From the NCBI GenBank assembly GCA_027067015.1, contig JAMOMS010000092.1, positions 1 through 14,423 of the forward strand: 14,423 nucleotides of DNA, in the 5' to 3' direction. Below the pieces are notes generated by a model. It had not been told where the DNA came from. It did not search any database and saw nothing but the letters and a program-made list of their open reading frames with translations. This DNA is from Campylobacterales bacterium (lineage in GTDB: Bacteria > Campylobacterota > Campylobacteria > Campylobacterales > Hydrogenimonadaceae). The translations under genes were made by a program, and so were the position numbers. Every line of letters starts with the position of its first letter. Position 1 is the stretch's first letter. This document shows, in pieces, positions 1-14,423 of the stretch.

Positions 1-1
1 G

Positions 2-583
2 CCCCATCCCGAAGGGTACCGCAAGGCGTTAAGAGCCGCCAAGCTGGCCGAGAAGTTTGACCTGCCCATTCTCATGCTCATTGACACCCCAGGCGCCTAT
101 CCGGGCCTGGGGGCCGAGGAGCGGGGGCAGAGCGAGGCAATCGCCCGCAATTTGCTGGAGCTTAGCCGTCTGGATACCGTGACGGTTTCCGTGGTGATCG
201 GCGAAGGAGGTAGCGGCGGGGCGCTGGCTATCGGTGTGGCGGATCGGCTGGCCATGATGCGCTACTCGGTCTTTAGTGTCATCTCTCCCGAAGGGTGTGC
301 CGCCATTTTGTGGAACGACCCGGCCAAAGTGGAACAGGCCACCAAGGCGCTTAAAATCACCCCCGACGCTTTGAAAGAGATGCGGTTGATCGACGACATT
401 ATCGACGAGCCGCTAATAGGTGCCCATCGTGACAAAGAGGGGGCGGCCGAAGCGGTGAAAACCTATTTTCTTGAAAGTGTTAAAAGCCTGCGTGAGCTTC
501 CCGCTCAGGAGCGCATGGCCAAGCGCTATGAGAAGATGATGGGGTTTGGGGCTTTCGCGGAGTCGCAAAAAGCAGAGTCGTAA
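2..583 (+). CDS. accA: Acetyl-CoA carboxylase carboxyltransferase subunit alpha (3' part)
   Basis: AccA pairs with AccD to transfer the carboxyl group from carboxybiotin to acetyl-CoA, the committed step of fatty acid synthesis in the cytoplasm. The frame is open from base 2, so the visible 193 residues are the C-terminal part of a protein usually near 310-320 aa. The first visible residues read [10 protein letters not shown], followed by IDTPGAYPG and [13 protein letters not shown], all AccA signatures. The glycine-rich oxyanion region [12 protein letters not shown] (about visible residues 67-78) and the block [10 protein letters not shown] complete the carboxyltransferase fold. An ATG at 74 lies inside the conserved core and is not the true start. 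The gene ends at a TAA followed by a strong hairpin terminator. The C-terminal tail after about visible residue 150 is less conserved. Identity is very secure; only the N-terminus is missing. Confidence 0.97.
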
Positions 584-604
584 AACGGTTTGATAATCAA
601 AAAG

Positions 605-638
605 AAAAGGGCCAAAGCGTAACGCTTTGGCCCTTTTT
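605..638. terminator. Bidirectional intrinsic terminator between accA and the DUF465 gene
   Basis: A perfect 15-bp inverted repeat (605-619 with 623-637) has a 3-nt loop. An A-rich run lies on the left and a T run (634-638) on the right, so it can stop transcription on both strands. It lies between two convergent genes, accA (+) and the DUF465 gene (-), and probably serves both. Confidence 0.93.
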
Positions 639-682
639 GCGTTGTATCGTGTGGCAAAGAGGCGAGAGCGCCTCTGTTGATT

Positions 683-910
683 TTAGAGGTTGTGCTCTTT
701 TTTGTACTCAAGAATCATGCGATAGGCTTCATCTTTGAGGCGCAGTTTCTCTTTTTTGAGCTTCTCAAGCTCCAGATCATCCATATGCAAACGTCCCTCT
801 TCCGCTTCGGTGACGGTTTTGTCCAGTTCGTTGTGTTTTTCAAAGATTTTCGCAAAATGCGCGTTTTCGACCTTCAGTTTGCTGATGATGTCGCGGTATT
901 CGTGAAGCAT
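683..910 (-). CDS. DUF465 (YdcH-like) small alpha-helical protein
   Basis: A 75-aa protein, highly charged and almost wholly helical. It begins MLHEYRDIISKLK and contains HFAKIFEKHNELD followed by a Lys/Glu-rich helix ending YKKEHNL. This pattern matches the YdcH/DUF465 family of short antiparallel coiled-coil proteins, whose molecular role is not established. The ATG at 910 is preceded by a good ribosome site (AGGAG, about 5 nt away). A TATAAT on the minus strand at 941-936 could give it its own promoter, although argJ lies only 46 nt upstream on the same strand. A small DUF465 gene next to rpmB is, as I recall, common in Campylobacterota; here argJ sits between them. Family assignment is confident; function is unknown. 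Confidence 0.85.
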   Translation of the reverse strand: MLHEYRDIISKLKVENAHFAKIFEKHNELDKTVTEAEEGRLHMDDLELEKLKKEKLRLKDEAYRMILEYKKEHNL

Positions 911-935
911 CGTCTCTCCTGTTGAAATTTTCCCG

Positions 936-941
936 ATTATA
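936..941 (-). promoter_or_regulatory. Possible -10 box for the DUF465 gene
   Basis: The minus strand reads TATAAT exactly in the 46-nt gap between argJ and the DUF465 gene, 25 nt before the start codon. No convincing -35 at 17 nt is seen, which is normal for Campylobacterota sigma-70 promoters. A small inverted repeat (948-952 with 957-961) covering the argJ stop lies just upstream. Confidence 0.45.
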
Positions 942-956
942 GTCTATCTTGACTTA

Positions 957-2144
957 TCAAGTCCTGTAATCGGCGTTGATTTTGACGTATTCATGGCCAA
1001 GATCGCACCCGTAGGCGGTAAAGGCCCCCTCGCCCACGCCAAGGTGGCAGTGGATGGTAAAGGCGCTTCTTTTCATCACTTCGGCGGCCCTTTTTTCGAT
1101 CTCTTCGTCAAAGAGAATCTCCCCTTTGTCGTACACGGTCACGTTGCCAAACGTGATGGTAAGCGTCGCCGGGTCGCAGGTTACGCCGCTGGCACCGACG
1201 GTCGAGGCGATGCGGCCCCAGTTGGGGTCTTCGCCGTAAAGGGCGGTTTTGACCAGCAAGGAGTTGCTCAGCGCCTTGGCGCAGATCTCCGCCTCCGCTT
1301 CATTGAGGGCGCCGGTTACTTTGAAGGCGACGCATTTGCTCGCCCCCTCGCCGTCGGCGACGATCTTGAGGGCGAGTTCGTGCAGTAGGCGTTTGAGCGC
1401 CTCCGCAAAAGCCTCTTTTTCGTACACGCCGCTTGCGCCGTTGGCCAACAGCATCACCGTGTCGTTGGTGGAGGTGTCGCCGTCGACGCTGATGGCGTTG
1501 AAGGTGGTTTTGACACCCTCTTGCAAAATCTTTCGCATGGTATCGGTGGGTACGGCGGCATCGGTGGTGATGAAGCAGAGCATGGTGGCCATGGCGGGGT
1601 TGATCATCCCCGCGCCCTTGGCCATGGCGCCGATGCGAAAGCTTCGGCCCCCTTGCAAAGTCACTTCAAACGCGACCTGCTTGGGGTAGCTGTCGGTGGT
1701 CATGATGGCTTTGGCGGCGGCATCGGGGTTTTTGGCGTGCAGGTCAAACCGCTCAAGGCCCGCCGTGAGTTTGGCTTTGGGCAGGCGCACGCCGATGACG
1801 CCGGTAGAGCTCATGACGGGATTTTCAATGGCCGGAAAAAGCGTTTGGGCGTGATGTAAAATCTCCTCAATATCGGCAATGCCCGCCTCGCCCGTCATGG
1901 CGTTGGCGTTTTTGGCGTTGATGAGCACGAAGTTGGTGCGGGTGATGTCGTGCTTTTGAAAATGTTTGATGGGAGCCGCCTGAAAGCGGTTGGCGGTAAA
2001 GACGGCGGCGGTGTCGCACGGGGTGTCGGCGTAGATAAAGGCCATGTCTTTGGCGCCGTTTGGCTTAAGACCGGCGGCGATGCCGTCGGCGAAGAAGCCT
2101 TCGGGCGCGCAGACGCCGCCTTCAATGGGGGTGATGGTATACAT
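957..2144 (-). CDS. argJ: Bifunctional ornithine acetyltransferase / N-acetylglutamate synthase
   Basis: ArgJ recycles the acetyl group from N-acetylornithine to glutamate in the cyclic arginine pathway, and in bifunctional forms also makes N-acetylglutamate from acetyl-CoA. The 395-aa protein shows the family marks: [13 protein letters not shown] (about 48-60), [19 protein letters not shown], and the autocleavage region [20 protein letters not shown]. Cleavage is expected between A186 and T187, freeing Thr as the nucleophile of the beta chain. DPNWGRI and [10 protein letters not shown] are also present. A TTG at 2165 would add seven residues, but the ATG at 2144 has a clear AAGGAG about 6 nt upstream and gives the usual N-terminus, so I use it. 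It lies downstream of rpmB, behind a terminator hairpin, with no clear promoter of its own. Whether it is mono- or bifunctional cannot be read from the sequence. Confidence 0.96.
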
Positions 2145-2163
2145 GGATGCTCCTTTTTGAGGC

Positions 2164-2198
2164 AAAAAAAAAGGGCCGAAGGCTTGCGCCCCCGGCCC
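2164..2198 (-). terminator. Intrinsic terminator after rpmB, directly before argJ
   Basis: On the minus strand, a GC-rich stem (2193-2198 with 2173-2178, and an inner GGC/GCC pair at 2181-2183/2188-2190) is followed by nine T residues (complement of 2164-2172). The tract ends about 20 nt before the argJ start codon, leaving almost no room for a separate argJ promoter. Confidence 0.85.
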
Positions 2199-2220
2199 CT
2201 TTTTCGGTAGCTTCCCGGCC

Positions 2221-2418
2221 TTAGGCCAGGCCGCCTTTTTTCTTCATGGTCCGAAGCGTAGAGGCCGCGACGCGGATCTTCTTACGGGTGCCGTCTTCCA
2301 GGGTAACGCGAACCGTGCGGAGGTTCGGCAGGAAGCGGCGTTTGGTTTTGTTGTGCGCGTGGCTGACGTTGTAACCGGTCATCGGGCCTTTGCCCGTTAC
2401 TTGACATTTTCTTGCCAT
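2221..2418 (-). CDS. rpmB: 50S ribosomal protein L28
   Basis: A 65-aa basic protein starting [24 protein letters not shown], with RRFLPNL and [28 protein letters not shown]. This is a complete bacterial L28, which binds 23S rRNA in the large subunit. The open frame extends upstream, but the ATG at 2418 gives the exact family N-terminus and has an AAAGG about 8 nt upstream. Only one Cys (C5) is visible, so this is a form without the four-cysteine zinc site. It is transcribed alone or first, from a promoter in the divergent region shared with the HDOD operon, and ends at a strong hairpin. The rpmB-rpe-dnaQ neighbourhood fits Campylobacterota. Confidence 0.98.
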
Positions 2419-2458
2419 GATTCGTGCCTTTAAAATTACAGGGATAAAAAGTTGGCAA

Positions 2459-2466
2459 ATTCTATA
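2459..2466 (-). promoter_or_regulatory. Likely rpmB -10 region
   Basis: The minus strand reads TATAGAAT here, about 41 nt upstream of the rpmB ATG, after a T-rich stretch (the complement of the A-rich run 2468-2482). This is the usual look of Campylobacterota sigma-70 promoters, which have a good -10 and a periodic T-rich upstream region instead of a -35. Confidence 0.55.
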
Positions 2467-2536
2467 GAAATAAACCAAAAAATCCGCTTAAATTAAGAAG
2501 TTTTTTATCTCTTGTTTCTGTTTTAAATTTTTACGA

Positions 2537-2542
2537 TAGAAT
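2537..2542 (+). promoter_or_regulatory. Likely -10 box of the HDOD-STAS/CheX-rpe-trpF-dnaQ operon
   Basis: TAGAAT lies 42 nt before the HDOD gene start, preceded by AT-rich sequence (2498-2532) that stands out from the GC-rich genes. The start codon is preceded by AAAGG at 2569-2573, somewhat far for a ribosome site. The whole gap 2419-2584 holds only the two divergent promoters. Confidence 0.5.
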
Positions 2543-2584
2543 ACAAAAGAGCTGTTTCAACACCATTTAAAGGTTATACGCGCG

Positions 2585-3382
2585 ATGATTACGGCAGAGC
2601 AGTTAAACCGTTACCTTAAAAACGTGCCGCCGCTTCCCGAGACGTTGAGAAAGACGTTGGAAGCGTTGGATCAGGGCGATCTGGCCGGCTCAGCCAAAGA
2701 GGCCGAAAAGGACCGGGCACTGGTTTTTTATTTAAAAGGTGTCGTCAACAGCGCCGCTTTTGGTTTCAAAAGCGAATTAAACGACGTGCCGCAGATCTTT
2801 TCGGCCCTGGGAATCCAGCGGGCCAGGCAACTGCTTTACGCCTATATGGTGGCTTCCATGGCCCCGGAGACGTGGGGCTATTTTGATCTGGATACCGAGC
2901 ATTTCAGGGATTTTCAGGTCACGATGATGCGTCAGTGGGAGCGTATTATCAAAGCGGAAAACGCGCCGGAATCCTATCTGGCCGCGTCGGCCCTTTTGGG
3001 CGCCGGGTTGGTGGTAGCCGACGCCGTTTTCGCCGAGCGGGCCAAAGATGTGGCGCTTTTACAGTCGATGGAGGATCTGACGCTGGATACCATTTTGGAG
3101 CGGATTAGCGGCGTGGACTTTGCCAAACTGGTAGGGATGATCGCGAAAAAGTGGGAGGTGAGTGCTGAGGTTGCGGAAGTGGTATTACTGGCTTTCGGGA
3201 AAAGGGCGTGCGACAAAGAGGCGACCTCTTGCCGTCTGGCCAAACTCCTGCACCTACTGCTCTTTTACGCCCTCAGCCGTCCGGCCATGATGCGGGCGGG
3301 CGTGAACGGTTTTGTGACGTTCAACCCCGCCTTCTCGGAAGATGTGACGGCCCGTTTTCAAGAGATAGTGGAGATCGCATGA
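2585..3382 (+). CDS. HDOD domain protein (degenerate HD signalling domain)
   Basis: A 265-aa soluble protein. Residues 14-20 (VPPLPET), the following KDRALVFYLKGVVNSAAFGF (43-62) and ALGIQRARQLLYAYM (74-88) match the start of the HDOD fold, a signalling relative of the HD phosphohydrolases. The canonical catalytic His-Asp is not seen: where families have a LLHD-like motif this protein reads ALLGAG (136-141), so it is probably a binding or scaffold module rather than an enzyme. It has no signal peptide or membrane helix. Its stop overlaps the next gene's start (ATGA), so translation is coupled to the STAS-like/CheX protein, which suggests a shared role, perhaps in chemotaxis or regulation of motility or metabolism. 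The ATG at 2585 is the only sensible start. The specific function is unknown. Confidence 0.82.
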   Translation: MITAEQLNRYLKNVPPLPETLRKTLEALDQGDLAGSAKEAEKDRALVFYLKGVVNSAAFGFKSELNDVPQIFSALGIQRARQLLYAYMVASMAPETWGYFDLDTEHFRDFQVTMMRQWERIIKAENAPESYLAASALLGAGLVVADAVFAERAKDVALLQSMEDLTLDTILERISGVDFAKLVGMIAKKWEVSAEVAEVVLLAFGKRACDKEATSCRLAKLLHLLLFYALSRPAMMRAGVNGFVTFNPAFSEDVTARFQEIVEIA

Positions 3383-4776
3383 GACCGGTTATCAAAAAGC
3401 AGAGGGTTGCCGTTTTCTATCCCCAGGGTTTTCTGGACGGCAACAGCGCCTCGGAACTGATTACCATTCCCGATATGCAGGCGGTAAAGGCTTCCAACGC
3501 CGTGGTGGTAGTCGTTTCGATGAAACGGGTGGTTTTTTTCAATAAAAACGGGATCCAGATTATTCTGGACGCCTTGAGTAAACTCCAAAAAGAGATGAAA
3601 CTGACCATCGGTTTTTGTGACTACAACAAACAGCAGTACGAGGCTTTTTTCAAATACTTTAATAAAGATGTGCCTTTCTCACTCTTTAAGACTTTGGATA
3701 TCGCCATGCTCTTTGGCGGGGTGCATAAAGAGGAGGAGAAGGAGGGCAATGTGCTGGTCTGGCATGAAGATCCCACCCAGCGCAGTATGCAGGCCATTGA
3801 GGTGTATGACCGGGGGTTTACGCCCGTCGTGGCCCAAACCGAGGAGGATTTCCTGGCCCGACGCAAGGATGAGAAGCTCTTTTACGCCGTGGTGGAGATG
3901 AGCTATCTGGGGTTGATGGCCAACCGCATCGCCGCCAAGACCCGGGGCAACTGCGTTATCTACTACCTCAAAGGCTTTCTTGACGGGTCGGTAACGGAGC
4001 AGTTTGACGTGCTCTATCACCAAAACTGCCTCAAGGTCGGCTTTCAGCTCTTTATGTTTGACGCCACGCGGGTCAGTTCGCTCAATATTCACGCCGCCAA
4101 CTTCTTCTCCCGCCTCTCAACCGCCGGGGCCGAGTACGGGGCGCTGATCGCTATTGTGGGATTGGATATGGAGAAAACCCCCAAGGCTTTCGTGGAGGAG
4201 TTGGAGGACGCGGGGATTATGTTTTTTGAGAATGAATCCGACTTTTTTGCCGACGAGACGGTGCAATCCATGAGCGGCGGCGGGGCGGCCGTGAAGAAAG
4301 AGAAGAACAAACTTACCAAAGCCATGGTGGCCAAATTGCCGGTTTTCGTGGACGCGACGCTGGATACGTTGGAGATGATGACGGGGATGGAAGCGGTAAA
4401 AGAGGGTATGAATGTCCGGGCGTTTGAGGCAAGCGCTGAGCGTTTGATGGGCAGTTCCATCGCCTTTTACGGCGATATCGACGGACGTATTACCCTGGTG
4501 ATGCCGCGGGAATTGGTAAAAAAAGCGTGCGCGCTACTGATTGGGGAGGAGAGTGACGACACCGAGATTTTGGCCGACGCCCTCAGTGAGCTGGTTAATA
4601 TTATCGCCGGTAAATCCAAAACCCATCTGCAGGAGAACCGCACCCATATCAACATTACCCTGCCGCGCAACTATCTGGAACTGGAAGATTTGAAGCAGAC
4701 ATTGCAGGGGATCCAAGGGGTTCAGGTCGATTTCAGGTTCGGGGATTATCCTTTCATCTTCTATCTTAGCCCCTAA
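3379..4776 (+). CDS. STAS-like / STAS-like / CheX-type CheY-P phosphatase domain protein
   Basis: A 465-aa cytoplasmic protein of apparently three domains. Residues 9-112 and 191-291 look like two copies of a STAS-like alpha/beta fold; both open with a strand and a shared GFLDG (17-21 and 199-203). The C-terminal 320-462 resembles CheX/CheC/FliY phosphatases, with the helix ALSELVNIIAGKSKTHLQE (401-419). Its E404xxN407 matches the catalytic Glu-Asn pair that dephosphorylates CheY-P in CheX. I chose the ATG at 3379, which overlaps the HDOD stop by 4 nt and has GGAG upstream. The open frame runs further upstream, but that part lies inside the HDOD gene in another frame. Rpe follows after 9 nt. 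The substrate response regulator is not in the window. The CheX call is fairly good; the STAS call is by fold pattern and less certain. Confidence 0.75.
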   Translation: MRPVIKKQRVAVFYPQGFLDGNSASELITIPDMQAVKASNAVVVVVSMKRVVFFNKNGIQIILDALSKLQKEMKLTIGFCDYNKQQYEAFFKYFNKDVPFSLFKTLDIAMLFGGVHKEEEKEGNVLVWHEDPTQRSMQAIEVYDRGFTPVVAQTEEDFLARRKDEKLFYAVVEMSYLGLMANRIAAKTRGNCVIYYLKGFLDGSVTEQFDVLYHQNCLKVGFQLFMFDATRVSSLNIHAANFFSRLSTAGAEYGALIAIVGLDMEKTPKAFVEELEDAGIMFFENESDFFADETVQSMSGGGAAVKKEKNKLTKAMVAKLPVFVDATLDTLEMMTGMEAVKEGMNVRAFEASAERLMGSSIAFYGDIDGRITLVMPRELVKKACALLIGEESDDTEILADALSELVNIIAGKSKTHLQENRTHINITLPRNYLELEDLKQTLQGIQGVQVDFRFGDYPFIFYLSP

Positions 4777-4785
4777 GGAGACGCC

Positions 4786-5427
4786 ATGCTGGTTGCCCCC
4801 AGTATCCTTTCGGCCGATTTCGGCCACTTGGCCCGTGACGTCAAAGCGATCTGCGACGCCGGGTGTGATCTGGTGCATGTGGATGTGATGGACGGCCATT
4901 TTGTTCCCAACCTTACCATCGGCCCCGTGGTGGTTGAGGCGGTGGCCAAAGCCGCGACCAAACCGCTGGACATTCACCTGATGGTGGAGAACAACACCTT
5001 TTTCGTCGATCTCTTCGCGCCCATCAACCCTGAATTTATCTCATTTCATATTGAGGAAGAGAAGCACCCCCATCGCCTGATTCAAAAGATTCGCGCTCTT
5101 GGCATTCGCCCGGTCGTGGTGCTCAACCCCCATACCCGACCCGAAAGCGTGGAGTTTTTGCTTGAGGAGCTGGATATGGTTTTGCTTATGAGCGTCAACC
5201 CGGGATTTGGGGGGCAAACGTTCATTCCTTCGGTAATCGAGAAGGCCAAACGGCTCAAAGAGATGATACAAAAGCGCAATCCCAAATGCCTGATAGAAGT
5301 GGACGGCGGCGTGAACGACCAAAACATCCATGCGCTCAAAGCCGCCGGCGTGGATGTGGCGGTGGCCGGCAGTTACGTCTTCAAACACGCCGACATCAAG
5401 GCGGCCATTGAGAGTCTGAAGGTATGA
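4786..5427 (+). CDS. rpe: Ribulose-phosphate 3-epimerase
   Basis: Rpe interconverts ribulose 5-phosphate and xylulose 5-phosphate in the pentose phosphate pathway (and Calvin cycle, if present). The 213-aa TIM barrel begins MLVAPSILSADF and shows all family blocks: VHVDVMDGHFVPNLTIGP (H31, D33), DIHLMVEN (H64), SVNPGFGGQ (136-144), EVDGGV (D173) and VAGSYVF near the phosphate site. H31, D33, H64 and D173 are the expected metal ligands, and D33 and D173 the acid-base pair. The length is normal. A strong AAGGAG overlaps the preceding stop and sits 5 nt before the ATG. The stop overlaps the trpF start (ATGA). An rpe next to dnaQ and rpmB is typical of the phylum; trpF is an insertion between them here. 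Confidence 0.97.
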   Translation: MLVAPSILSADFGHLARDVKAICDAGCDLVHVDVMDGHFVPNLTIGPVVVEAVAKAATKPLDIHLMVENNTFFVDLFAPINPEFISFHIEEEKHPHRLIQKIRALGIRPVVVLNPHTRPESVEFLLEELDMVLLMSVNPGFGGQTFIPSVIEKAKRLKEMIQKRNPKCLIEVDGGVNDQNIHALKAAGVDVAVAGSYVFKHADIKAAIESLKV

Positions 5428-6023
5428 GGCCAAGGGTTAAGATTTGCGGCATTACCAACCTTGAAGACGCCTTAGCGGCCGTGCGGGCCGGGGCGGACGC
5501 GCTGGGATTTGTCTTTTATGAGAAATCTCCCCGATTCGTCACCCCCGAAGCGGCGGCGAAGATCGCGGCCAAGATTCCGCCGTTTGTGGAGCGGGTGGGG
5601 CTTTTTGTCAATGAAGAGCCTAAAACGGTCGACGCGATCTGCGAAGAAGCGGGCATGGGCCTGGCGCAGATACACTTTGAGGTGGATGAGCGTTACCTCA
5701 AAGCGCTCAAAACCAAAGCCCTGCCGGTGGTGCGGGCAAAGTCGCCTGAAGATGTGCATAGGTTTTCGGGGCGTTTCAGGCTGGTGGACGCTTACTGCGA
5801 AGCCTACGGCGGCATGGGCAAACGGCTCAACCTGGCGTGGTTTGAGGGGGCCGATTGCGAGCGAATCGTCATTGCGGGAGGATTGCGGCCTGACAACGTG
5901 GCCGAGGTATTGCCCTACGGCTTTTACGGGGTGGATGTCAGTAGCGGCGTGGAAGCGGCCAGGGGCAAGAAAGAGGCGGCGAAGATGGAAGCGTTTGTAG
6001 GGGCGGTTAAAGGCGGGATGTGA
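5424..6023 (+). CDS. trpF: Phosphoribosylanthranilate isomerase
   Basis: TrpF performs the Amadori rearrangement of phosphoribosylanthranilate to CdRP, the third step of tryptophan synthesis. The 199-aa TIM barrel has VKICGITNLEDA with catalytic Cys8, GADALGFVFYEKSPR, a general-acid Asp in LVDAY (D122), GGMGKRLNLAW, AGGLRPDNV and the phosphate-binding GVDVSSGVE (169-177). These are complete and in order. The more usual QLHG reads AQIHFE here, within normal variation. It overlaps rpe (ATGA) at the start and dnaQ (GTGA) at the end, so it is translated as part of this operon. No other trp gene is visible, so trpF is separated from the rest of the pathway. Confidence 0.96.
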   Translation: MRPRVKICGITNLEDALAAVRAGADALGFVFYEKSPRFVTPEAAAKIAAKIPPFVERVGLFVNEEPKTVDAICEEAGMGLAQIHFEVDERYLKALKTKALPVVRAKSPEDVHRFSGRFRLVDAYCEAYGGMGKRLNLAWFEGADCERIVIAGGLRPDNVAEVLPYGFYGVDVSSGVEAARGKKEAAKMEAFVGAVKGGM

Positions 6024-6808
6024 GAAACTTGATAGACTCTCTTGTTACGGCGCTCAAAAAAGAGGGCGGCGTGATGGCGAGAGAGCGATTTGAGGCACTG
6101 TTGCAAAAGGGGCGGGATTCTTTGTTTGAGGATGCCGATACCCTGCTTGAGTTGGTGATCGCTTCAGGCGTGCCGATTGCCGTGGAAGAGGGGACGGTAC
6201 GGCTTTTAAGCGCTTTTCGTCCCTGGCGGGAAGAGACCTTTTGCGTGGTGGATATTGAGACCAACGGCAGTGTGCCGAGCCGTTCGCAGATTATTGAGAT
6301 CGGGGCATTGAAGTGGCGAAACGGCGAGATTGTCGGGCGTTTTGAGAGTTTCGCGGCCTGTAGCTATTTGCCTGAGAATATCAGCGAAATTACCGGCATT
6401 TATCCTGAAGATCTCAAAGACGCGCCGCCGCTTTTTAAAGTGTTGGGCGATTTTCGCGCCTTTTTGGGGGACGCGCTTTTTGTGGCCCACAATATCTCGT
6501 TTGATTATAACTTTATCTCCCACTCGTTGGAGCGGTTTGGCCTTGGGGTTTTGGGCAATCGCAGGCTCTGTACCATTGAGCTGGCCCGGCGAACCATCGA
6601 GGCGGAGCGCTACGGGCTGGGACATCTGAATATCGCCCTGGATATCAATACGCTGGTGCATCACCGCGCCTTTGCCGATGCCCTGACCGCTTCAAAAGTT
6701 CTGGAGATCGGGCTTGGAAAGCTTCCTGCGCAGGTTATAACCTCCGAAGAGCTGATTGATTTTACCAAACTGCCTGTCGCCAAAGCCAAACGGCTTCAGG
6801 CGATGTGA
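6020..6808 (+). CDS. dnaQ: DnaQ-like 3'-5' exonuclease (DNA polymerase III epsilon type)
   Basis: A 262-aa DEDDh exonuclease, probably the proofreading subunit of the replicase. Exo I is VVDIETNG (D78, E80), Exo II is VAHNISFDYNF (D162), and Exo III is HHRAFADA (H215, D220), so all five catalytic residues are present. The first about 70 residues form an extra N-terminal helical part not found in E. coli epsilon, which seems usual in this phylum. The start is GTG at 6020, overlapping the trpF stop by 4 nt, with GGCGGG upstream. The C-terminus (about 228-262) is short, and I see no obvious clamp-binding motif. The last 13 nt overlap the end of the convergent hexapeptide gene. A paralogous exonuclease of the same family cannot be ruled out. 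Confidence 0.9.
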   Translation: MRNLIDSLVTALKKEGGVMARERFEALLQKGRDSLFEDADTLLELVIASGVPIAVEEGTVRLLSAFRPWREETFCVVDIETNGSVPSRSQIIEIGALKWRNGEIVGRFESFAACSYLPENISEITGIYPEDLKDAPPLFKVLGDFRAFLGDALFVAHNISFDYNFISHSLERFGLGVLGNRRLCTIELARRTIEAERYGLGHLNIALDINTLVHHRAFADALTASKVLEIGLGKLPAQVITSEELIDFTKLPVAKAKRLQAM

Positions 6809-7332
6809 TCGATATAGTCGTTTTTAAAAGCCACGTAACGTTTGGCCGAGGCGTAGAGTTCGGCCACCTCTTCGTCGGTTAGCTTGCGCACAACTTTGGC
6901 CGGAGAGCCGAGAATCAGGCTTCTTGGCGGAAAGACCTTGCCGCCCGTTACCAGCGCCCCCGCGCCCACAATGGACTCTTTGCCGATCACCGCGCCGTCA
7001 AGAATGGTGCTGTTCATACCGATCAGACATCCGTCTTCAATGGTGCATCCGTGCAGCATTACCCGATGGCCGACGGTGACGTCGTTGCCGATGATCGTGG
7101 GATAGCCGTCGCTCATGTCGGGCTTTTTGTAGTGGGTGACGTGGATCATGGTTAGATCCTGGATATTGGTGCGGTCCCCGATGCGGATTTTGTGCACGTC
7201 GCCGCGAATGACACACCCAAACCAGATGGAACACTCCTTACCCGTCTCCACATTGCCCACGATCGTGGCGTCGGGGGCGATCCATGTGTTTTGGCCGAAC
7301 TTGGGAAACCACTCTTTGTAGCGCAGTAGCAT
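6796..7332 (-). CDS. Gamma-carbonic-anhydrase-like left-handed beta-helix protein
   Basis: A 178-aa hexapeptide-repeat protein of the gamma-CA-like (YrdA/PaaY) family. It has RGDV (R43-V46), TNIQD (55-59) and three likely metal His residues: H64 in MIHVTH, H89 in VGH and H94 in LHGC. IGMNSTILDGAVIG and LGSPAKVVRKL follow; the last is the usual exit of the helix into a C-terminal alpha helix. Such proteins form trimers with zinc or iron between subunits; some hydrate CO2, while many have unknown activity. The frame extends to a TTG at 7359, inside the toxin gene, but the ATG at 7332 has AAAGGA 7 nt upstream and gives the family N-terminus. It follows the toxin by 10 nt on the same strand, so it may be co-transcribed with the toxin-antitoxin pair. 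Its tail overlaps dnaQ. Confidence 0.9.
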   Translation of the reverse strand: MLLRYKEWFPKFGQNTWIAPDATIVGNVETGKECSIWFGCVIRGDVHKIRIGDRTNIQDLTMIHVTHYKKPDMSDGYPTIIGNDVTVGHRVMLHGCTIEDGCLIGMNSTILDGAVIGKESIVGAGALVTGGKVFPPRSLILGSPAKVVRKLTDEEVAELYASAKRYVAFKNDYIDHIA

Positions 7333-7342
7333 GATAATCCTT

Positions 7343-7720
7343 TTATAGCAGTTTGACAAGACCGCCGTAGCGGGCTATATGTCTGTCGACACTCAAAAGT
7401 ATCAAATCCTCACTCACAGCCTGGGCAATCAGCATCCGGTCGAAAGGGTCTTTGTGGTAATTGGACAGGTCTCTCAAGGCCAGAGCGTGCGAAGATTTGA
7501 TCGAAAGGATATCAAACCCTTCCTCTTTTACGGCTTCTGGGTAGGCCGGATCGATCACGAGATGGCCCAACGCCGACTTGATCTCGATCTCCCAGAAGGA
7601 GGCGACGCTGACGACGATGGCGTTGGTGGGATCCATGATCAGATTTCGGTGGCGTTTTGGAAGCTTCGGGTCGTCATAGAGCCACCAGATCAGGATATGG
7701 GTGTCCAGCAGACAGGTCAT
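7343..7720 (-). CDS. VapC-like PIN-domain toxin
   Basis: A 125-aa PIN-domain ribonuclease, the toxin of a type II pair. Acidic residues of the Mg2+ site are visible: D6 in LLDTHILIWW, E44 in SFWEIEIKSALG, D91/D94 in HKDPFDRMLIAQA and D112 in LLSVDRHIARYG. This looks complete, so the enzyme is probably intact. Likely targets in the family are tRNA or rRNA sites, but none can be named here. Its ATG overlaps the antitoxin stop (ATGA), the classic arrangement, and the gene ends 10 nt before the hexapeptide gene. Base use resembles the neighbours, so there is no sign of very recent transfer, although the pair sits between two conserved blocks. Confidence 0.92.
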   Translation of the reverse strand: MTCLLDTHILIWWLYDDPKLPKRHRNLIMDPTNAIVVSVASFWEIEIKSALGHLVIDPAYPEAVKEEGFDILSIKSSHALALRDLSNYHKDPFDRMLIAQAVSEDLILLSVDRHIARYGGLVKLL

Positions 7721-7953
7721 AGCGATTTTTTGCCAAAGAGTTTTTCGATCGTTTTGTCGGCTTCGTCGAAACGGGTCATATCCAGCGGCTTGCCTTTCAA
7801 GCGTCCCGGACGGCGTTTGGCGGGCGGTTTGTTGTAGGGCTTGAGCACGGCGACCGCTTCGCCAGCTTTGGCGATAATCACCTCTTCGCCTTTTTGGGCC
7901 AGTTCCACCAGTTTGGAGAGGGTCGTTTTGGCTTCATGCATATTGACGATCAT
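7717..7953 (-). CDS. Phd/YefM-type antitoxin
   Basis: A 78-aa protein whose first 40 residues (MIVNMHEAKTTLSKLVELAQKGEEVIIAKAG) are the Phd/YefM fold, which dimerises and binds DNA. The tail, about 41-78, is basic and Pro-rich and then helical (ADKTIEKLFGKK), and should wrap and block the toxin. The ATG at 7953 has AAAGGAG 6 nt upstream. The gene is first in the pair and its stop overlaps the toxin start. A perfect 22-bp palindrome lies directly over the upstream edge of the ribosome site, so the antitoxin, alone or with toxin, likely represses the operon. uvrB ends 42 nt upstream on the same strand. Confidence 0.9.
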   Translation of the reverse strand: MIVNMHEAKTTLSKLVELAQKGEEVIIAKAGEAVAVLKPYNKPPAKRRPGRLKGKPLDMTRFDEADKTIEKLFGKKSL

Positions 7954-7961
7954 CTTCGCTC

Positions 7962-7983
7962 CTTTAGCTAATATTAGCTAAAG
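7962..7983 (-). promoter_or_regulatory. Palindromic operator of the Phd/VapC pair
   Basis: A perfect 22-bp inverted repeat holds two identical 8-bp palindromes (TTAGCTAA at 7964-7971 and 7974-7981), 10 bp centre to centre, which puts them on one face of the helix. It starts 9 nt upstream of the antitoxin ATG, touches the ribosome site and contains a TAATAT that could be a -10. Position and symmetry fit autorepression by a Phd-family dimer pair. Confidence 0.85.
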
Positions 7984-7995
7984 CATGATTTTTTG

Positions 7996-9966
7996 TCAAA
8001 GTTTCTTGATCTTCTCAATCTCATCCCGCAGTCTGGCGGCCTCCTCAAACTCCAGCCGTTTGGCTGACTCGTGCATCTTTTTGGTCAGCTCCTTGATAAT
8101 TTTTTGGCGCTCTTTGGCGGGCATCTTTTCGAGCTTGCTCTTTTTTTCGTACAAGATGCCGTGATCTTCGAGTTTGAGGTTCTCATCGAGCTTGCGGCCC
8201 ACGGTTTTGGGGATGATGCCGTGTATTTCGTTGTACTTTTTCTGGCGTTTACGCCTGCTTAGCGTCGTGTCGATGGCCCGGCGCATGGAGTCGGTGACGG
8301 TTTTGGCGTACATCAGCACTTTGCCGTTGACGTTTCGGGCCGCGCGGCCCATGGTCTGAATCAGCGCCGTTTCACTGCGCAAAAAGCCCTCTTTGTCGGC
8401 ATCCAGGATCGCCACCAGGCTCACTTCGGGCAGGTCCAGCCCCTCTCTTAGCAGGTTAATACCCACCAACACGTCAAACTCTCCCATTCGCAGTCCCCGG
8501 ATAATCTGATTGCGCTCAATGGCGTCGATGTCAGAATGCATATATTTGACCTTCAACCCCAGGTCGTTGTAGTAGGTGGTCAGCTCCTCGGCCATCTTTT
8601 TGGTCAGTACCGTAATTAACACCCGTTCATTCCTGGCGACGACTTTTTTGATCTCGTCATAGAGGTGCTCTACCTGGTATTCGCTGTCAACCACCTCCAC
8701 CTCCGGGTCCAGCAGGCCCGTGGGGCGGATGATCTGCTCGGCCACGACGGCGGAGAGCTTTAGCTCCAGTTCGGCGGGGGTGGCGGAGACAAAAAGGTAG
8801 TGGGGCGCCTTGTCAATAAACTCCTCAAACTTCAAAGGCCGGTTGTCCAGGGCGCTGGGGAGGCGGAAACCGTACTCCACCAGCACCTCTTTTCTGCTTC
8901 TGTCGCCCGCGTACATCCCCCGAAACTGCGGCAAACTCACGTGGCTTTCATCGACGATGATGAGGTAGGGACGGTTTTTGATCTCAAAGTAGTCCAGCAA
9001 AGAGTAGGGGGTCTCCCCCGGTTTTTTGCCCGTCAGATGCCTGGCGTAATTTTCAATCCCCTTGCACATACCGGTGGTCTCCAGCATCTCCAGGTCAAAC
9101 TCGGTGCGCTGTTTAAGACGCTGGTACTCAAGCAATTTGCCCTCTTTTTTAAAGTAGGCCAGCCGCTCGGCCAGCTCCTCTTCGATGCTTTTAATGGCTC
9201 GCTGAAGCCTGTCGGGGCCTACGATAAAGTTGCTGGCGGCGTAGACGGTGGTGGTTTTAAGCTCGCCTGTTTTGCGGTTGGTGAGCGGATCGAAGGTGTA
9301 AATGGCTTCGACCTCGTCGCCGAAAAACTCCACCCGCACCGCCTCCTCTTCGCTGTAGGCCGGGTAGATGTCGATGACGTCGCCCGAAACCCTAAAGTTA
9401 CCGCGGTCAAAAAAGTTGTCGTTGCGGCTATATCCCATCTCCACAAGTCTTAGCATCAGGCTTCGCTGATCGATCTCGTCGCCGATTTCAAGCTTTTGGA
9501 CCATCTTTTTGTACTCAACCGGGTTGCCAAGACCGTAGTTGGCGCTGACGGATGCCACAACGATCACGTCGTCGTAGGTTAGCAGGCTGGCCGTGGCGCT
9601 CAGTCTCAATCGCTCCAGCTCTTCGTTGATGGAACTGTCCTTTTCAATAAACAGATCCTGCCGGGGGATATAGGCTTCGGGCTGGTAGTAGTCATAATAG
9701 CTGATGAAGTATTCGACATGGTTGTGGGGGAAAAAGCCCTTAAACTCACTGTAAAGCTGGGCCGCCAGGGTCTTGTTGTGGGTCATGATAAGGGTGGGCA
9801 TCTGGAGCTTTTGGATAATCTGCGCCATCGTAAAGGTTTTGCCGCTTCCGGTGACGCCAAGGAGCGTCTGGTAGCGGTGGCCCGCCTCTATGGAGTTGGT
9901 GAGCAGTTTGATGGCTTGGGGTTGGTCGCCCGCGGGGGCGTAGTCGCTTTTGAGTTCAAAGAGCAA
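7996..9966 (-). CDS. uvrB: UvrABC excinuclease subunit B
   Basis: UvrB receives damaged DNA from UvrA, verifies the lesion and recruits UvrC. The protein is 656 aa, normal for the family. Visible features in order: PAGDQPQAI (11-19), Walker A GVTGSGKT (37-44), the beta-hairpin start [12 protein letters not shown] (90-101), DESH (339-342), SATP, motif [14 protein letters not shown], and a C-terminal UVR motif (about 625-656, [15 protein letters not shown]) for UvrC contact. All parts are intact. The start is TTG at 9966, since no ATG lies in a plausible place. AAGGA sits 5 nt upstream and the protein begins at the conserved place. It is divergent from the coiled-coil gene, with 80 nt between, and has a -10 there. 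The toxin-antitoxin pair follows on the same strand. Confidence 0.98.
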
Positions 9967-9998
9967 AAAGATCCTTTGGCAAACGAGGAGTTTTTGAC

Positions 9999-10008
9999 TA
10001 TAATTATA
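9999..10008. promoter_or_regulatory. Overlapping back-to-back -10 boxes (uvrB / coiled-coil operon)
   Basis: TATAATTATA is its own reverse complement and contains TATAAT on the plus strand (9999-10004) and TATAAT on the minus strand (10008-10003). It lies about 33 nt from the uvrB start and 38 nt from the coiled-coil gene start, good distances for both. The two directions would then compete for polymerase at one site. Confidence 0.7.
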
Positions 10009-10046
10009 CCAACCGAAAATCCCAAAAAAAGTGAGCTTTAACGAAA

Positions 10047-10277
10047 ATGGAAACGATGAACCCTTTGGAGAAACTGGCCCAAAAGATTGACGGCATGATT
10101 GTCAAACTCAAAAACCTCGAAGATGAAAACGCCGCCTTGCGCAATGACCTGATGGCCGTTAAGGCCCAAAACGAGGCCAAAGACGCGCAGATCGCCAAAC
10201 TCAACGACGAGTTGGCCATGAAAGACCTGGAGATTGAAGAGGTCATCGGCAAAATCGAGGCCATTCTGGGCGAATAA
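10047..10277 (+). CDS. Small coiled-coil protein, possibly cell-division associated
   Basis: A 76-aa, highly charged protein with an almost continuous heptad pattern from about residue 7 to 74 ([27 protein letters not shown]). It is a single long helical coil like ZapB or other short FtsZ-ring or scaffold proteins. There are no catalytic residues, signal peptide or membrane segment. The start is ATG at 10047, with a second ATG three codons later; neither has a strong ribosome site. Its stop overlaps the next ATG by 1 nt (TAATG), so the two are translated together, and the next protein resembles ZapA. A ZapA/ZapB-like pair is the natural reading but remains inference, since coiled coils of this length look alike. 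Confidence 0.7.
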
Positions 10278-10492
10278 TGAAAAAAATCACCCTCGCCGTC
10301 GGCGGCAAGCAGTACACCATTTCGCTGGACGAACCCTACGCCGAGGCGATGGAAAAAGAGCTCAAAGAGACCTTTGTGATGGGGCAGGACAATGATGTCA
10401 AAGTCCTACTGCAAGCCTATTTGACCAAACAATTGGCCTATTTTGAAACCATGAACGAAATTAAACAGTTGTGTGAAAAACTTTCTGATTAA
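10277..10492 (+). CDS. ZapA-like small protein
   Basis: A 71-aa protein. The N-terminal [19 protein letters not shown] resembles the beta strands of ZapA (a short strand, GKxYTI, then a loop). The C-terminal helix, about 43-70 (VLLQAYLTKQLAYFETMNEIKQLCEKL), resembles the ZapA coiled coil that tetramerises and bundles FtsZ. It is shorter than E. coli ZapA (about 109 aa). It starts right at the stop of the coiled-coil gene. No further gene follows in this operon; a pilin promoter begins about 25 nt after the stop. Functional assignment is tentative; it could be a different small DNA-repair or division helper linked with uvrB. Confidence 0.55.
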   Translation: MKKITLAVGGKQYTISLDEPYAEAMEKELKETFVMGQDNDVKVLLQAYLTKQLAYFETMNEIKQLCEKLSD

Positions 10493-10515
10493 GCGATATT
10501 TTATTTTGTGTGTTA

Positions 10516-10521
10516 CATAAT
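10516..10521 (+). promoter_or_regulatory. Likely -10 box of the first pilin gene
   Basis: CATAAT, preceded by TGTTA, lies 62 nt before the pilin ATG after a T-rich run (10498-10513). It would give a leader of about 55 nt containing the hairpin at 10532-10549 and a strong AAAGGAG. I see no -24/-12 sigma-54 site here. Confidence 0.5.
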
Positions 10522-10531
10522 GGCAAGTGAG

Positions 10532-10549
10532 CCTTCGTAGCGACGAAGG
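10532..10549 (+). other. Stem-loop in the pilin 5' leader
   Basis: A perfect 7-bp stem (10532-10538 with 10543-10549) with a 4-nt loop AGCG. No T run follows, so it is not a normal terminator. Placed in the leader of a probably abundant mRNA, it might protect the 5' end or be bound by a regulator. Confidence 0.55.
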
Positions 10550-10582
10550 ACACAAAACACCATTCATATAAAAGGAGCAATC

Positions 10583-10960
10583 ATGCGACGCGGTTTTACC
10601 ATGATCGAACTGATCTTCGTGATCGTAATTCTGGGTATTCTGGCGGCTGTGGCCATTCCCAAACTGGCGGCAACCCGTGACGACGCCAAAGCCTCTACGG
10701 AGCTGACCAATCTCTCGACCTGTATCAATGATGTAGGTAACGCTTACACCTCTACCGGTACGGAAGACAACACCAGTGCGGCTTGTAACGCGCTGAAATG
10801 TGCTTCTGTTAATTTGGGTAACTCTACGACTGACGGTAACATTACTGTAAACCTGTCAAGCTCGACAACTCCTTCTTATTGTCCTGCGGTTAAAACGGCG
10901 GCAGAAGCCAAAGACCTGAACGGTACGCACGAGTTTGGCGGTACGCACGTAACCTACTAA
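10583..10960 (+). CDS. Type IV pilin / pseudopilin 1 (probable major pilin)
   Basis: A 125-aa prepilin. The leader MRRG is cut before F5, giving a mature start FTMIELIFVIVILGILAAVAIPKLAATRDDA with Glu at mature position 5. This is the type III (class) signal processed and N-methylated by prepilin peptidase PilD. The hydrophobic helix (about 8-25) anchors it in the inner membrane and packs the fibre core. The C-domain holds four cysteines (C47, C68, C73, C100), room for two disulfides, many Ser/Thr/Asn residues and the C-terminal GTHVTY. AAAGGAG lies 6 nt before the ATG. The strong ribosome site, own promoter and hairpin terminator just after suggest it is made more than the two pilins downstream. 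Whether the fibre is a type IV pilus, type II secretion or DNA-uptake pseudopilus is not shown. Confidence 0.88.
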   Translation: MRRGFTMIELIFVIVILGILAAVAIPKLAATRDDAKASTELTNLSTCINDVGNAYTSTGTEDNTSAACNALKCASVNLGNSTTDGNITVNLSSSTTPSYCPAVKTAAEAKDLNGTHEFGGTHVTY

Positions 10961-10984
10961 TTCTCTTAAGCCAACTTACGGAAG

Positions 10985-11022
10985 AGGGTTTTGGGGGCGT
11001 TTGCCGCCAAAACCCTTTTTTT
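10985..11022 (+). terminator. Intrinsic terminator between pilin 1 and pilin 2
   Basis: A 10-bp perfect stem (10985-10994 with 11007-11016) continues after a single G-G mismatch with three more pairs around a GTTT loop. Seven T residues (11016-11022) and a TC-rich tract follow. It ends 24 nt before the pilin 2 start, so pilins 2 and 3 would be expressed by read-through or a very short promoter (TACAAT at 11028-11033). Confidence 0.93.
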
Positions 11023-11046
11023 CTCTCTACAATACAAGGATGCGAT

Positions 11047-11499
11047 ATGCGGCACGCCTTTACCATGATAGAACTTGTCTTCGTTATTGTGATACTGGGC
11101 ATCCTTGCGGCTATTGCCATACCTAAATTTGCGGCGACTCGGGACGATGCGAAAGTTGTAACGCTTGCGCAACAGATTATGACGGGAGCGCAAGATATCT
11201 CCATGTACGCGACGGCCCAGGCCAAAACCGAAAACGATTTGACAAAAATGTCCAACACGTTGGCCAGCCTGAAGAACCAGGGCCTGTTGACGGTCAACAC
11301 CGCCAACAAGTCGGTGGACGTAAAGGCCGGAAGCGTGAACAACTGCGTGACGCTCAAGATCGTTACCGGTATATCTGATGACAACCTAACCATCACTTTT
11401 AACTCGACAGGCGGGGATGTGCTATGCGTGCAGTTGCAAAAGGTTATTCCCGCCGCGGCCTACCCGATGCGGTTAAGGGGAACCCATGTGCAATATTAA
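11047..11499 (+). CDS. Type IV pilin / pseudopilin 2
   Basis: A 150-aa prepilin with leader MRHA, so the processing residue before F5 is Ala rather than the more common Gly. The mature N-terminus FTMIELVFVIVILGILAAIAIPKFAATRDDAK is nearly the same as pilin 1. The C-domain (about 35-150) is different, with C100 and C127 as a possible disulfide. It ends GTHVQY, sharing GTHVxY with pilin 1. AAGGA lies 6 nt before the ATG. Its stop lies inside the next gene (14-nt overlap), so pilins 2 and 3 are coupled. A minor-pilin role fits its position after the terminator. It could equally belong to a competence or type II secretion pseudopilus. Confidence 0.88.
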   Translation: MRHAFTMIELVFVIVILGILAAIAIPKFAATRDDAKVVTLAQQIMTGAQDISMYATAQAKTENDLTKMSNTLASLKNQGLLTVNTANKSVDVKAGSVNNCVTLKIVTGISDDNLTITFNSTGGDVLCVQLQKVIPAAAYPMRLRGTHVQY

Positions 11500-11917
11500 A
11501 AACCGACGCGCCTTTACCATGATTGAAGTGGTTTTTGTCATTGTTATTTTAGGTATTTTGGCGGCGGTGGCCCTTCCAAGATTGGCCGCGACCAGGGAGG
11601 ATGCGTTTGTCGCCAAAGCGCAGGCCAAAGTGGATGCGATTAGAAGCGGTTTGCAAAACTATCGTTCAAAGTCCCTGTTAAAGGGCAACGGAGCGGTCTA
11701 CCCCGCCTCTTTGGATAGCGGCGGAAAGCTCTTTTCGGTTGTGACAAACGGTGTCACGCCCGGCAGTAATGCCGGGCAGTGGCAGGTAAGCGGCTCAACC
11801 TATACCTATAGTACGGGCGGGCATAGTATCGTGTTTGATTACAACGCCTCTTCGGGGACCTTTACTTGCAACCGTTCTTCAACCTCTCCCTCTTCATTGT
11901 GTGATAAGTTTGAGTAG
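11486..11917 (+). CDS. Type IV pilin / pseudopilin 3 (GspG/H-like)
   Basis: A 143-aa prepilin with a longer leader (MCNIKNRRA) cut before F10 and a mature start FTMIEVVFVIVILGILAAVALPRLAATREDAF. The residue before the cut is Ala, and mature residue 5 is Glu. The helix runs to about 60. The C-domain is Gly/Ser/Thr-rich with VYPASLDSGGKLF, which recalls the YP region of GspG-like pseudopilins, and a Cys pair C128/C139. It lacks the GTHVxY ending of the other two. AAGGGG lies before the ATG, inside the pilin 2 gene. Three pilin-like genes before priA point to a fibre or transformation apparatus whose motor and secretin genes must be elsewhere. Confidence 0.86.
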   Translation: MCNIKNRRAFTMIEVVFVIVILGILAAVALPRLAATREDAFVAKAQAKVDAIRSGLQNYRSKSLLKGNGAVYPASLDSGGKLFSVVTNGVTPGSNAGQWQVSGSTYTYSTGGHSIVFDYNASSGTFTCNRSSTSPSSLCDKFE

Positions 11918-11935
11918 TTACGTCTTTGCTCTTCT

Positions 11936-11970
11936 ATCATAGCCGCCCGAAGGGGCGGAACCTCTATGAT
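11936..11970. other. Two-part stem-loop between pilin 3 and priA
   Basis: An outer pair (11936-11941 with 11965-11970, 6 bp), an asymmetric inner loop and a GC-rich inner stem (11943-11948 with 11953-11958) close a GAAG loop. No T tract follows on either side, so a rho-independent terminator is only weakly supported. It may end the pilin transcript in a factor-dependent way or act in the priA leader. The rest of 11971-12040 holds only the priA promoter and ribosome site. Confidence 0.5.
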
Positions 11971-11999
11971 GTCATCAGCCTTTAAAATCCCGGTCGACT

Positions 12000-12010
12000 T
12001 ATAGTATGAT
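12000..12010 (+). promoter_or_regulatory. Possible priA -10 region
   Basis: TATAGT (12000-12005) and TATGAT (12005-12010) overlap 30-40 nt before the priA ATG. Either gives a short leader with GAGGAG before the start. No -35 is clear. Confidence 0.4.
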
Positions 12011-12040
12011 GCCAATATTTTAGTAGGTGACGAGGAGAGA

Positions 12041-13888: not shown

Positions 13889-13895
13889 GGTGTGT

Positions 13896-13901
13896 TATAA
13901 T
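13896..13901 (+). promoter_or_regulatory. -10 box for the Uma2-like gene, giving a leaderless mRNA
   Basis: An exact TATAAT preceded by TGTGT ends 7 nt before the ATG at 13909. Transcription normally starts about 6-8 nt after the -10, so the message would begin at or next to the start codon. No ribosome site is present in the gap. Confidence 0.6.
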
Positions 13902-13908
13902 CGGCGCT

Positions 13909-14423
13909 ATGGAAGCGATACGTTATGAAGAGTTTTATACCATTGAAGACTACGATAAGTGGGAAGGGGACTGGGAGCTGATCGAAGGGCGTCCTTATGC
14001 CATGTCGCCGGCGGCGACGGTGATCCACCAGCGCATTGCGTTCGGGTTGATGAAACTCCTTGACGAGGCGATGGCGGAAGCGTGCGAGGGGTGTTATGTG
14101 GTAGGAGATGTCGATTATGTCGTTGCCAGCGATACGGTTTTAAGGCCGGATGTGGTGATAAGTTGCGAAGAAGCCCAAAAACGGTTGGAGAAGGCTCCGA
14201 TAGCGGTTTTCGAGGTGATTTCACCATCGACGGGAAGGCGCGACGAGACGATGAAAATGGAAATCTATCGTCAAGAAGGGGTGCGCTGGTTTGGATTGGT
14301 CTATCCGGCTTCACGTATCATCAAGCTTTTTCGTTTGACGGAGTTTGGCACCTATGTCAAAATGGGTGATTATACCGATGAGACGGTGACGCTGGAAGAT
14401 TCACGTTGCGCGTTGAAACTTGA
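13909..14423 (+). CDS. Uma2 family (DUF820) nuclease-like protein, 3' end cut by the window
   Basis: The frame is open to the end of the window (171 codons plus two bases). The protein begins MEAIRYEEFYTIEDYDKWEGDWELIEGRPYAMSPAATVIHQ in short blocks typical of DUF820/Uma2. It then has LRPDVVI (D81), FEVISPSTGRRD (E102, D112), K116 and the end block YRQEGVRWFGLVYP. These fit a restriction-endonuclease-like PD-(D/E)XK fold, although activity of most members is untested. The ATG at 13909 is chosen because the family N-terminus starts there; no ribosome site precedes it, and a TATAAT lies just upstream. The only other start (M32) would cut into the conserved part. The family is common in several bacterial groups, often in many copies and outside clear operons. 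Function here is unknown. Confidence 0.85.
   Translation, partial: MEAIRYEEFYTIEDYDKWEGDWELIEGRPYAMSPAATVIHQRIAFGLMKLLDEAMAEACEGCYVVGDVDYVVASDTVLRPDVVISCEEAQKRLEKAPIAVFEVISPSTGRRDETMKMEIYRQEGVRWFGLVYPASRIIKLFRLTEFGTYVKMGDYTDETVTLEDSRCALKL

Follow-up and report, generated by a model that had tools for sequence, protein, structure and literature searches.

What does a CheX domain do when it is the last module of a larger protein, encoded beside a gene for an HDOD-domain protein and among housekeeping genes? The question arises from a 14,423-nucleotide stretch of DNA (the window; GenBank assembly GCA_027067015.1, contig JAMOMS010000092.1, positions 1 to 14,423, forward strand) of a Campylobacterales bacterium, in which a gene for an HDOD-domain protein overlaps a gene for a protein, here labelled STX, that combines two STAS domains, half of a receiver domain and a CheX domain. 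STX is almost confined, among related bacteria, to genomes with the F3 chemosensory class, which makes it a probable, hitherto undescribed accessory component of bacterial steering. Its link to chemotaxis has good support, and we lean modestly toward the view that the pair is an accessory F3 module, either an HDOD-controlled phosphatase of phosphorylated CheY (CheY-P) or an HDOD-controlled binding module. A two-gene module that follows F3 and yet is missing from many genomes of that class would amount to a control on CheY-P or the motor that has gone unrecognised. Homologues of STX are named in databases just "chemotaxis protein CheX", so that a gene known by this name only would gain a likely role, with predicted effects on CheY-P turnover, contact with the HDOD protein and swimming bias.

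STX follows the F3 chemosensory class

The survey covered 249 genomes of the phylum, with families given as codes (f1, f2 and so on) and some of the loci opened; STX was sought with one Hydrogenimonas query at E 1e-5, at which far-diverged members may be missed. Matches were found in 97 of the 249 genomes, two of which (G007 and G244) held only a short stand-alone CheX, leaving 95 with STX: 82 with the full-length protein and 13 with only a short form bearing one STAS domain. Among 40 relatives, 31 matched (G007 by its short CheX only), as did 17 of the 18 genomes of the same genus. The idea that the pair is a local curiosity of one metagenome-assembled genome was rejected on the phylum-wide and genus counts.

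STX was present in none of the 26 genomes lacking FliG and in 1 of the 29 lacking CheA (G174), compared with 94 of 220 CheA-positive genomes (Fisher p 8.6e-6); six of the FliG-less and nine of the CheA-less genomes were identified by gaps in genome numbering. CheA was typed in 47 chosen genomes, with an F3-type CheA carrying the extra receiver as the query. It reached the receiver end, the mark of the F3 type, in 29 of these (17 STX-positive and 12 not); the other 18, namely all 12 CheA-positive f7 genomes and all 6 f9 genomes, had a non-F3 CheA and no STX. When the data were pooled, STX was found in 1 of 47 genomes with no CheA or with a CheA of non-F3 type versus 94 of 202 others, the latter including genomes of unchecked CheA type (p 3e-10). 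The link to growth or motility that had been proposed from the window alone (the original prediction) is, on the side of motility, sharpened by these counts to a link with the F3 class. This class is described only from Campylobacterota. According to the sections of PMC9321776 cited here, it is absent from Nitratiruptor, Arcobacter and unflagellated species, and H. pylori and C. jejuni are the species in which experiments established the chemotaxis parts of the phylum.

Within f5 and f8 together, STX was found in 21 of 21 CheA-positive and 0 of 4 CheA-negative genomes. For example, two f8 genomes (G015 and G027) have FliG, no match to CheA, CheW or a methyl-accepting chemotaxis protein (MCP), and no HDOD-STX pair; the f5 genome G086 has no FliG or CheA match and neither the HDOD partner nor STX. 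Both genes are present in all six CheA-positive f5 genomes, including G224, in which the STX gene (locus L080) runs through three frames and appears broken or mis-assembled. Absence of STX recurs in f4, f3 (g17), f8 (G191, G015 and G027), f5 (G086), f7 and f9, and some of these groups may never have acquired it, as opposed to having lost it.

The HDOD partner co-occurs with STX

The partner is an HDOD protein by Pfam (50.8 bits against a cut-off of 22.9) and by its AF2 model (pLDDT 90.9), the fold matches of which are HDOD structures. Genome-wide calls were made with a profile built on this protein, and the scores split cleanly: 58 genomes had true members at E 8.8e-51 or better, whereas other HDOD proteins of the phylum scored 2.4e-16 or weaker. 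All 58 also contain STX and CheA, with the HDOD and STX genes apart in six, so the co-occurrence on which the prediction of a functional pair depended holds across the phylum; linkage holds as well, in most of the full-length, HDOD-positive relatives that were opened. Within the linked set there was no genome-wide partner match in G174, G170, G201, G214, G020, G023 and G130, and G259, judged from its locus only, likewise has no HDOD.

In f5, the STX gene lies between trpE-like and aroE-like genes (three STX loci displayed) and the HDOD gene between rnhA-like and rnc-like genes (five HDOD loci displayed; all names by eye), at a separation of 0.75-1.07 Mb by contig coordinates in three single-contig genomes; here the pair is split between different housekeeping operons, yet still co-occurs. 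Full HDOD, STX and Rpe sequences were all present in 48 loci, across which HDOD and STX distances correlated beyond Rpe (partial r 0.81, with no significance test applied). Because of the gene overlap, the co-occurrence and the correlated distances, the HDOD protein probably acts with STX. A mirror-tree comparison, aimed at naming the STX domain that the HDOD protein contacts, was not decisive: partial r was 0.74 for the first STAS domain, 0.53 for the half receiver, 0.64 for the second STAS domain and 0.815 for CheX over all 48 loci, and 0.72, 0.62, 0.775 and 0.74, respectively, over the 34 loci outside f3.

STX combines four modules

Pfam supports the CheX domain of STX and places STAS just below its cut-off; among 74 STX homologues, matches at E <= 1 were obtained for STAS in 66 and for CheX in 65. 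A protein search gave 1015 homologues, of which the best 120 were listed, with 7996 candidates scored; the members considered were those within the phylum. The STAS fold was recovered for both STAS domains, for the first by profile with structure barely testing it, as was the CheX fold, with E404 and N407 aligned to the catalytic pair of 1xko and 3hzh. The predicted STAS/STAS/CheX arrangement with an intact ExxN motif is therefore real, but one further module, set between its two STAS domains, had been overlooked. Judged by its sequence, the CheX domain is of the same superfamily as, but is not, the Thermotogales equivalog (NCBIfam CheX_Thtogales, 31.4 bits against a cut-off of 280).

The overlooked module resembles the first half of a receiver. 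It carries an acidic pair (E130 and D131), and E173 (3895-3897) sits where the phospho-Asp would be. Against 23 receivers of the same genome it gave an hhalign probability of 91, compared with at most 1.1 for other families and 0.5 for column shuffles; the top control for any STX region in the panel was CheX against TrpF (6.1). Since Pfam shows no receiver match in the window STX, nor in the 25 of 53 families listed for the 74 members, the assignment draws on these profile-profile scores and on weak PDB profile matches to response regulators (PhoP, E 0.0035; CheY, E 0.068). It is not a full (beta-alpha)5 receiver (PF00072) with a phospho-Asp: the first half alone aligns, and E173 replaces the Asp.

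Short relatives of 345-358 amino acids (L093-L100, L102, L103 and L117) contain the first STAS domain, the half receiver and CheX, and no second STAS domain; in G165 and G195 this short form occurs alongside a long form that has lost the Asn of ExxN. In a quick tree (92 rows, LG+G4), the f8 linked rows group together, as do the f1 rows with one HDOD-less row included, and the f2 rows, the short forms and second copies from several genomes make up a separate 26-row branch (support 99, with some long branches), so that many HDOD-less members represent a sister subfamily.

Proposed function of the pair and alternatives

By analogy with the CheX family, the CheX domain of STX would bind CheY-P or a closely related receiver and, where E404 and N407 are intact, dephosphorylate it; the phosphatase activity of STX is thus an inferred one. 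The STAS and half-receiver modules would form a docking platform, and the co-translated HDOD protein would bind this platform and govern the timing or location of CheX activity.

Several observations weigh against this proposal. STX was not matched in 108 of the 202 other genomes noted above, including 12 of the 29 with verified F3-type CheA, and is therefore not essential; because the genomes share ancestry, both p values overstate their independence. Of the 82 genomes that encode the full-length STX, 24 have no partner HDOD: G174, six genomes of f3 and 17 of f2. G174 also retains STX without matches to CheA, CheW, MCP or the HDOD partner. No chemotaxis genes were seen adjoining STX in the loci opened. 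The genome of the window already encodes a short CheX that carries a separate ELAN motif and stands before fliN- and fliO-like frames (G000:C235; FliN and FliO by eye), so that STX contributes a second, additional CheX domain. Finally, 16 of the 52 HDOD-linked rows no longer have ExxN, comprising 14 of 15 in f3 and both in f11.

Both residues are kept in the remaining 36 of the 52 rows and in all 11 short one-STAS rows (8 of f11, 1 of f8 and 2 of f13); a twelfth row counted as short, that of G262, is cut by a contig end before CheX. The pair is likewise gone in six HDOD-less f3 rows and in the HDOD-less f11 long row. The STX of G174 (L035/L111) has Tyr at the N407 place. Given the decay in HDOD-linked rows, phosphatase activity is not the whole function everywhere, and the predicted phosphatase switch, for which the motif is intact in the window, would apply with this restriction. 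The f3 and f11 decay means either that binding is of use even where catalysis is gone or that the activity has passed to another CheX. The CheX fold is common to FliM and FliY, and STX might be an adaptor that binds the motor or CheY-P, engaging the switch complex or sequestering CheY-P with catalysis optional; we regard this as rather unlikely.

Somewhat less likely still is a target outside chemotaxis, in which case STX would act on another response regulator and its association with F3 would reflect only lifestyle or shared ancestry. The genome offers 23 receiver-domain matches, the STX gene stands apart from chemotaxis genes, and G174 has STX without chemotaxis; but STX was not found in 18 of 18 FliG-positive genomes with non-F3 CheA or in two FliG-positive genomes without CheA. 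The position outside a chemotaxis cluster, which had been taken as a distinctive feature, is confirmed but is normal in the phylum, where, in the sections of PMC9321776 cited here, F3-class cheY, cheZ and cheX are scattered beside unrelated genes.

A more speculative idea, which we hold to be doubtful, is that the half receiver serves as a built-in, tethered pseudo-substrate, its acidic pocket (E130, D131 and E173) mimicking CheY-P and plugging the CheX site until the HDOD protein releases it; if true, STX would be a self-gated CheY-P phosphatase. Of the 57 members with intact ExxN, 40 retain both acids, 130 and 131, compared with 1 of 17 members without ExxN; the figures are 11 of 22 versus 1 of 14 in a 60% non-redundant set (p 0.011) and 6 of 15 versus 1 of 12 in a 50% non-redundant set (p 0.09). 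This co-retention is suggestive of such a plug, and shared ancestry of the ExxN-less members may explain it as well. Highly improbable is partner switching of the SpoIIAA/RsbV type over a sigma factor or stress response: the two STAS domains do match SpoIIAA and RsbS, but, by eye, the place of the phosphorylatable Ser in the DSSG motif of SpoIIAA appears to be held by N57 in the first (48 of 74 members have N) and by H238 in the second (58 of 74 have H).

Relation to known proteins

No description of an HDOD-CheX pair was found by the searches made of open-licence PMC main texts, so the view of the pair as undescribed stands within the scope of these searches; the passages found there on CheX together with a STAS domain and phosphatase do not concern such a protein. 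The main text of PMC9321776 contains neither "STAS" nor "HDOD", and STX proteins may sit uncommented in its supplements. STX shares the CheX fold, the ExxN pair and PF13690 with known CheX phosphatases of CheY-P. However, the stand-alone PDB chains matched (T. maritima and B. burgdorferi type) have 155-172 amino acids, whereas in STX the CheX domain closes a four-module protein that is paired with an HDOD partner. The F3-class cheX-fliNO genes (PMC9321776, in the sections cited) likewise come from this phylum, encode a CheX domain, are scattered beside unrelated genes and track F3, but their cheX is a separate short gene; that STX is this ordinary F3 cheX was rejected, the latter lying elsewhere in the genome. 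In the part of PMC8789113 cited, a motility suppressor carries a hit in VC0377, a CheX-family protein of Vibrio, whose role is not determined there.

Aspartate-less receivers resemble the half receiver in lacking the phospho-Asp and, according to the sections of PMC4395418 cited, are often tied to HDOD domains; in STX, by contrast, the first receiver half alone is set between STAS domains. The main text of that paper mentions neither CheX nor STAS by name.

Of the HDOD proteins, Cj0248 (PDB 1vqr) is the top PDB sequence match of the partner profile (E 6.2e-8), but the match is confined to residues 9-109, and orthology was rejected because it is only partial. The structure of SadB (9qzk) matches the partner model at E 2.3e-3. 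This Pseudomonas HDOD protein binds cyclic di-GMP (c-di-GMP) and controls flagella, so its HDOD domain is tied to flagellar output; it differs in carrying a YbaK-like domain, and the part of PMC6543031 cited for it mentions no CheX partner. By analogy, c-di-GMP may be an idea worth testing for the HDOD partner. The mechanism of HDOD proteins is called not established in the same part of that paper, and the pair is a lead on what they do. A further HDOD gene of the window's own genome (L121:1072-1932, minus strand) lies between polA-like and uvrA-like genes (by eye), on the same contig as the cheX-fliN-fliO genes.

Organization of the locus

Named homologues are about 70-75% identical, indicating a Hydrogenimonas-like genome (its own assembly is G000 in the sample). 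The predicted ATGA overlap of the two genes was found in the window, as was their place at the head of a run of housekeeping genes, and the usual order is a divergent rpmB followed by HDOD-STX-rpe(-trpF)-dnaQ (Table 1). With start codons picked by similarity, an overlap of the two genes is seen at 49 of the 52 linked loci and measures 4 nucleotides at 39 of them.

Table 1. Coordinates of the HDOD-STX pair, its modules and neighbouring genes in the window
Feature	Position	Strand	Evidence
rpmB (ribosomal protein L28), divergent upstream neighbour	2221..2478 (ORF span)	-	Pfam 2.2e-25 for 2224-2421
HDOD-domain protein (partner gene), 265 aa	2585..3382	+	Pfam HDOD 1.9e-13
ATGA stop/start overlap, HDOD gene/STX gene	3379..3382	+	Read from sequence
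STX, 465 aa, STAS - half receiver - STAS - CheX	3379..4776	+
STAS domain 1 (STAS1), residues 1-112	3379..3714	+	Profile match to STAS2, prob 96.4; SpoIIAA profiles, E 0.0014-0.0025
Half receiver, residues 120-180, beta1-alpha1-beta2-alpha2-beta3	3736..3918	+
STAS domain 2 (STAS2), residues 183-298	3925..4272	+	STAS fold
CheX domain, residues 314-465	4318..4773	+	CheX fold (PF13690)
ExxN motif, E404 and N407	4588..4599	+	Aligned with T. maritima and B. burgdorferi CheX
rpe, downstream neighbour conserved beside STX	4786..5427	+	Pfam 1e-80
trpF, downstream neighbour	5424..6023	+	Pfam PRAI 1.6e-35
dnaQ-like exonuclease, downstream neighbour	6020..6808	+	Pfam RNase_T 3.3e-24

The surroundings of rpe were checked in 20 genomes, 19 of them without STX and one, G174, with STX there. 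Six genomes (G139, G191, G063, G026, G011 and G013) have rpmB and rpe adjoining without the HDOD-STX pair, and no rpmB lies within reach of rpe in 13 of the 19. The neighbours of paralogues and of the f5 loci were also considered as functional clues, and none was recognised by eye as a chemotaxis gene. At L085 (G243), the HDOD gene is split over two frames and the adjoining STX gene is open. Elsewhere in the window, a PIN-domain gene (7343-7720, minus strand) overlaps a hexapeptide-repeat gene (6796-7359, minus strand; gamma carbonic anhydrase-like, by eye), and three adjoining genes at 10583-11917 (plus strand) carry type IV pilin/pseudopilin N-methylation motifs (Pfam N_methyl).
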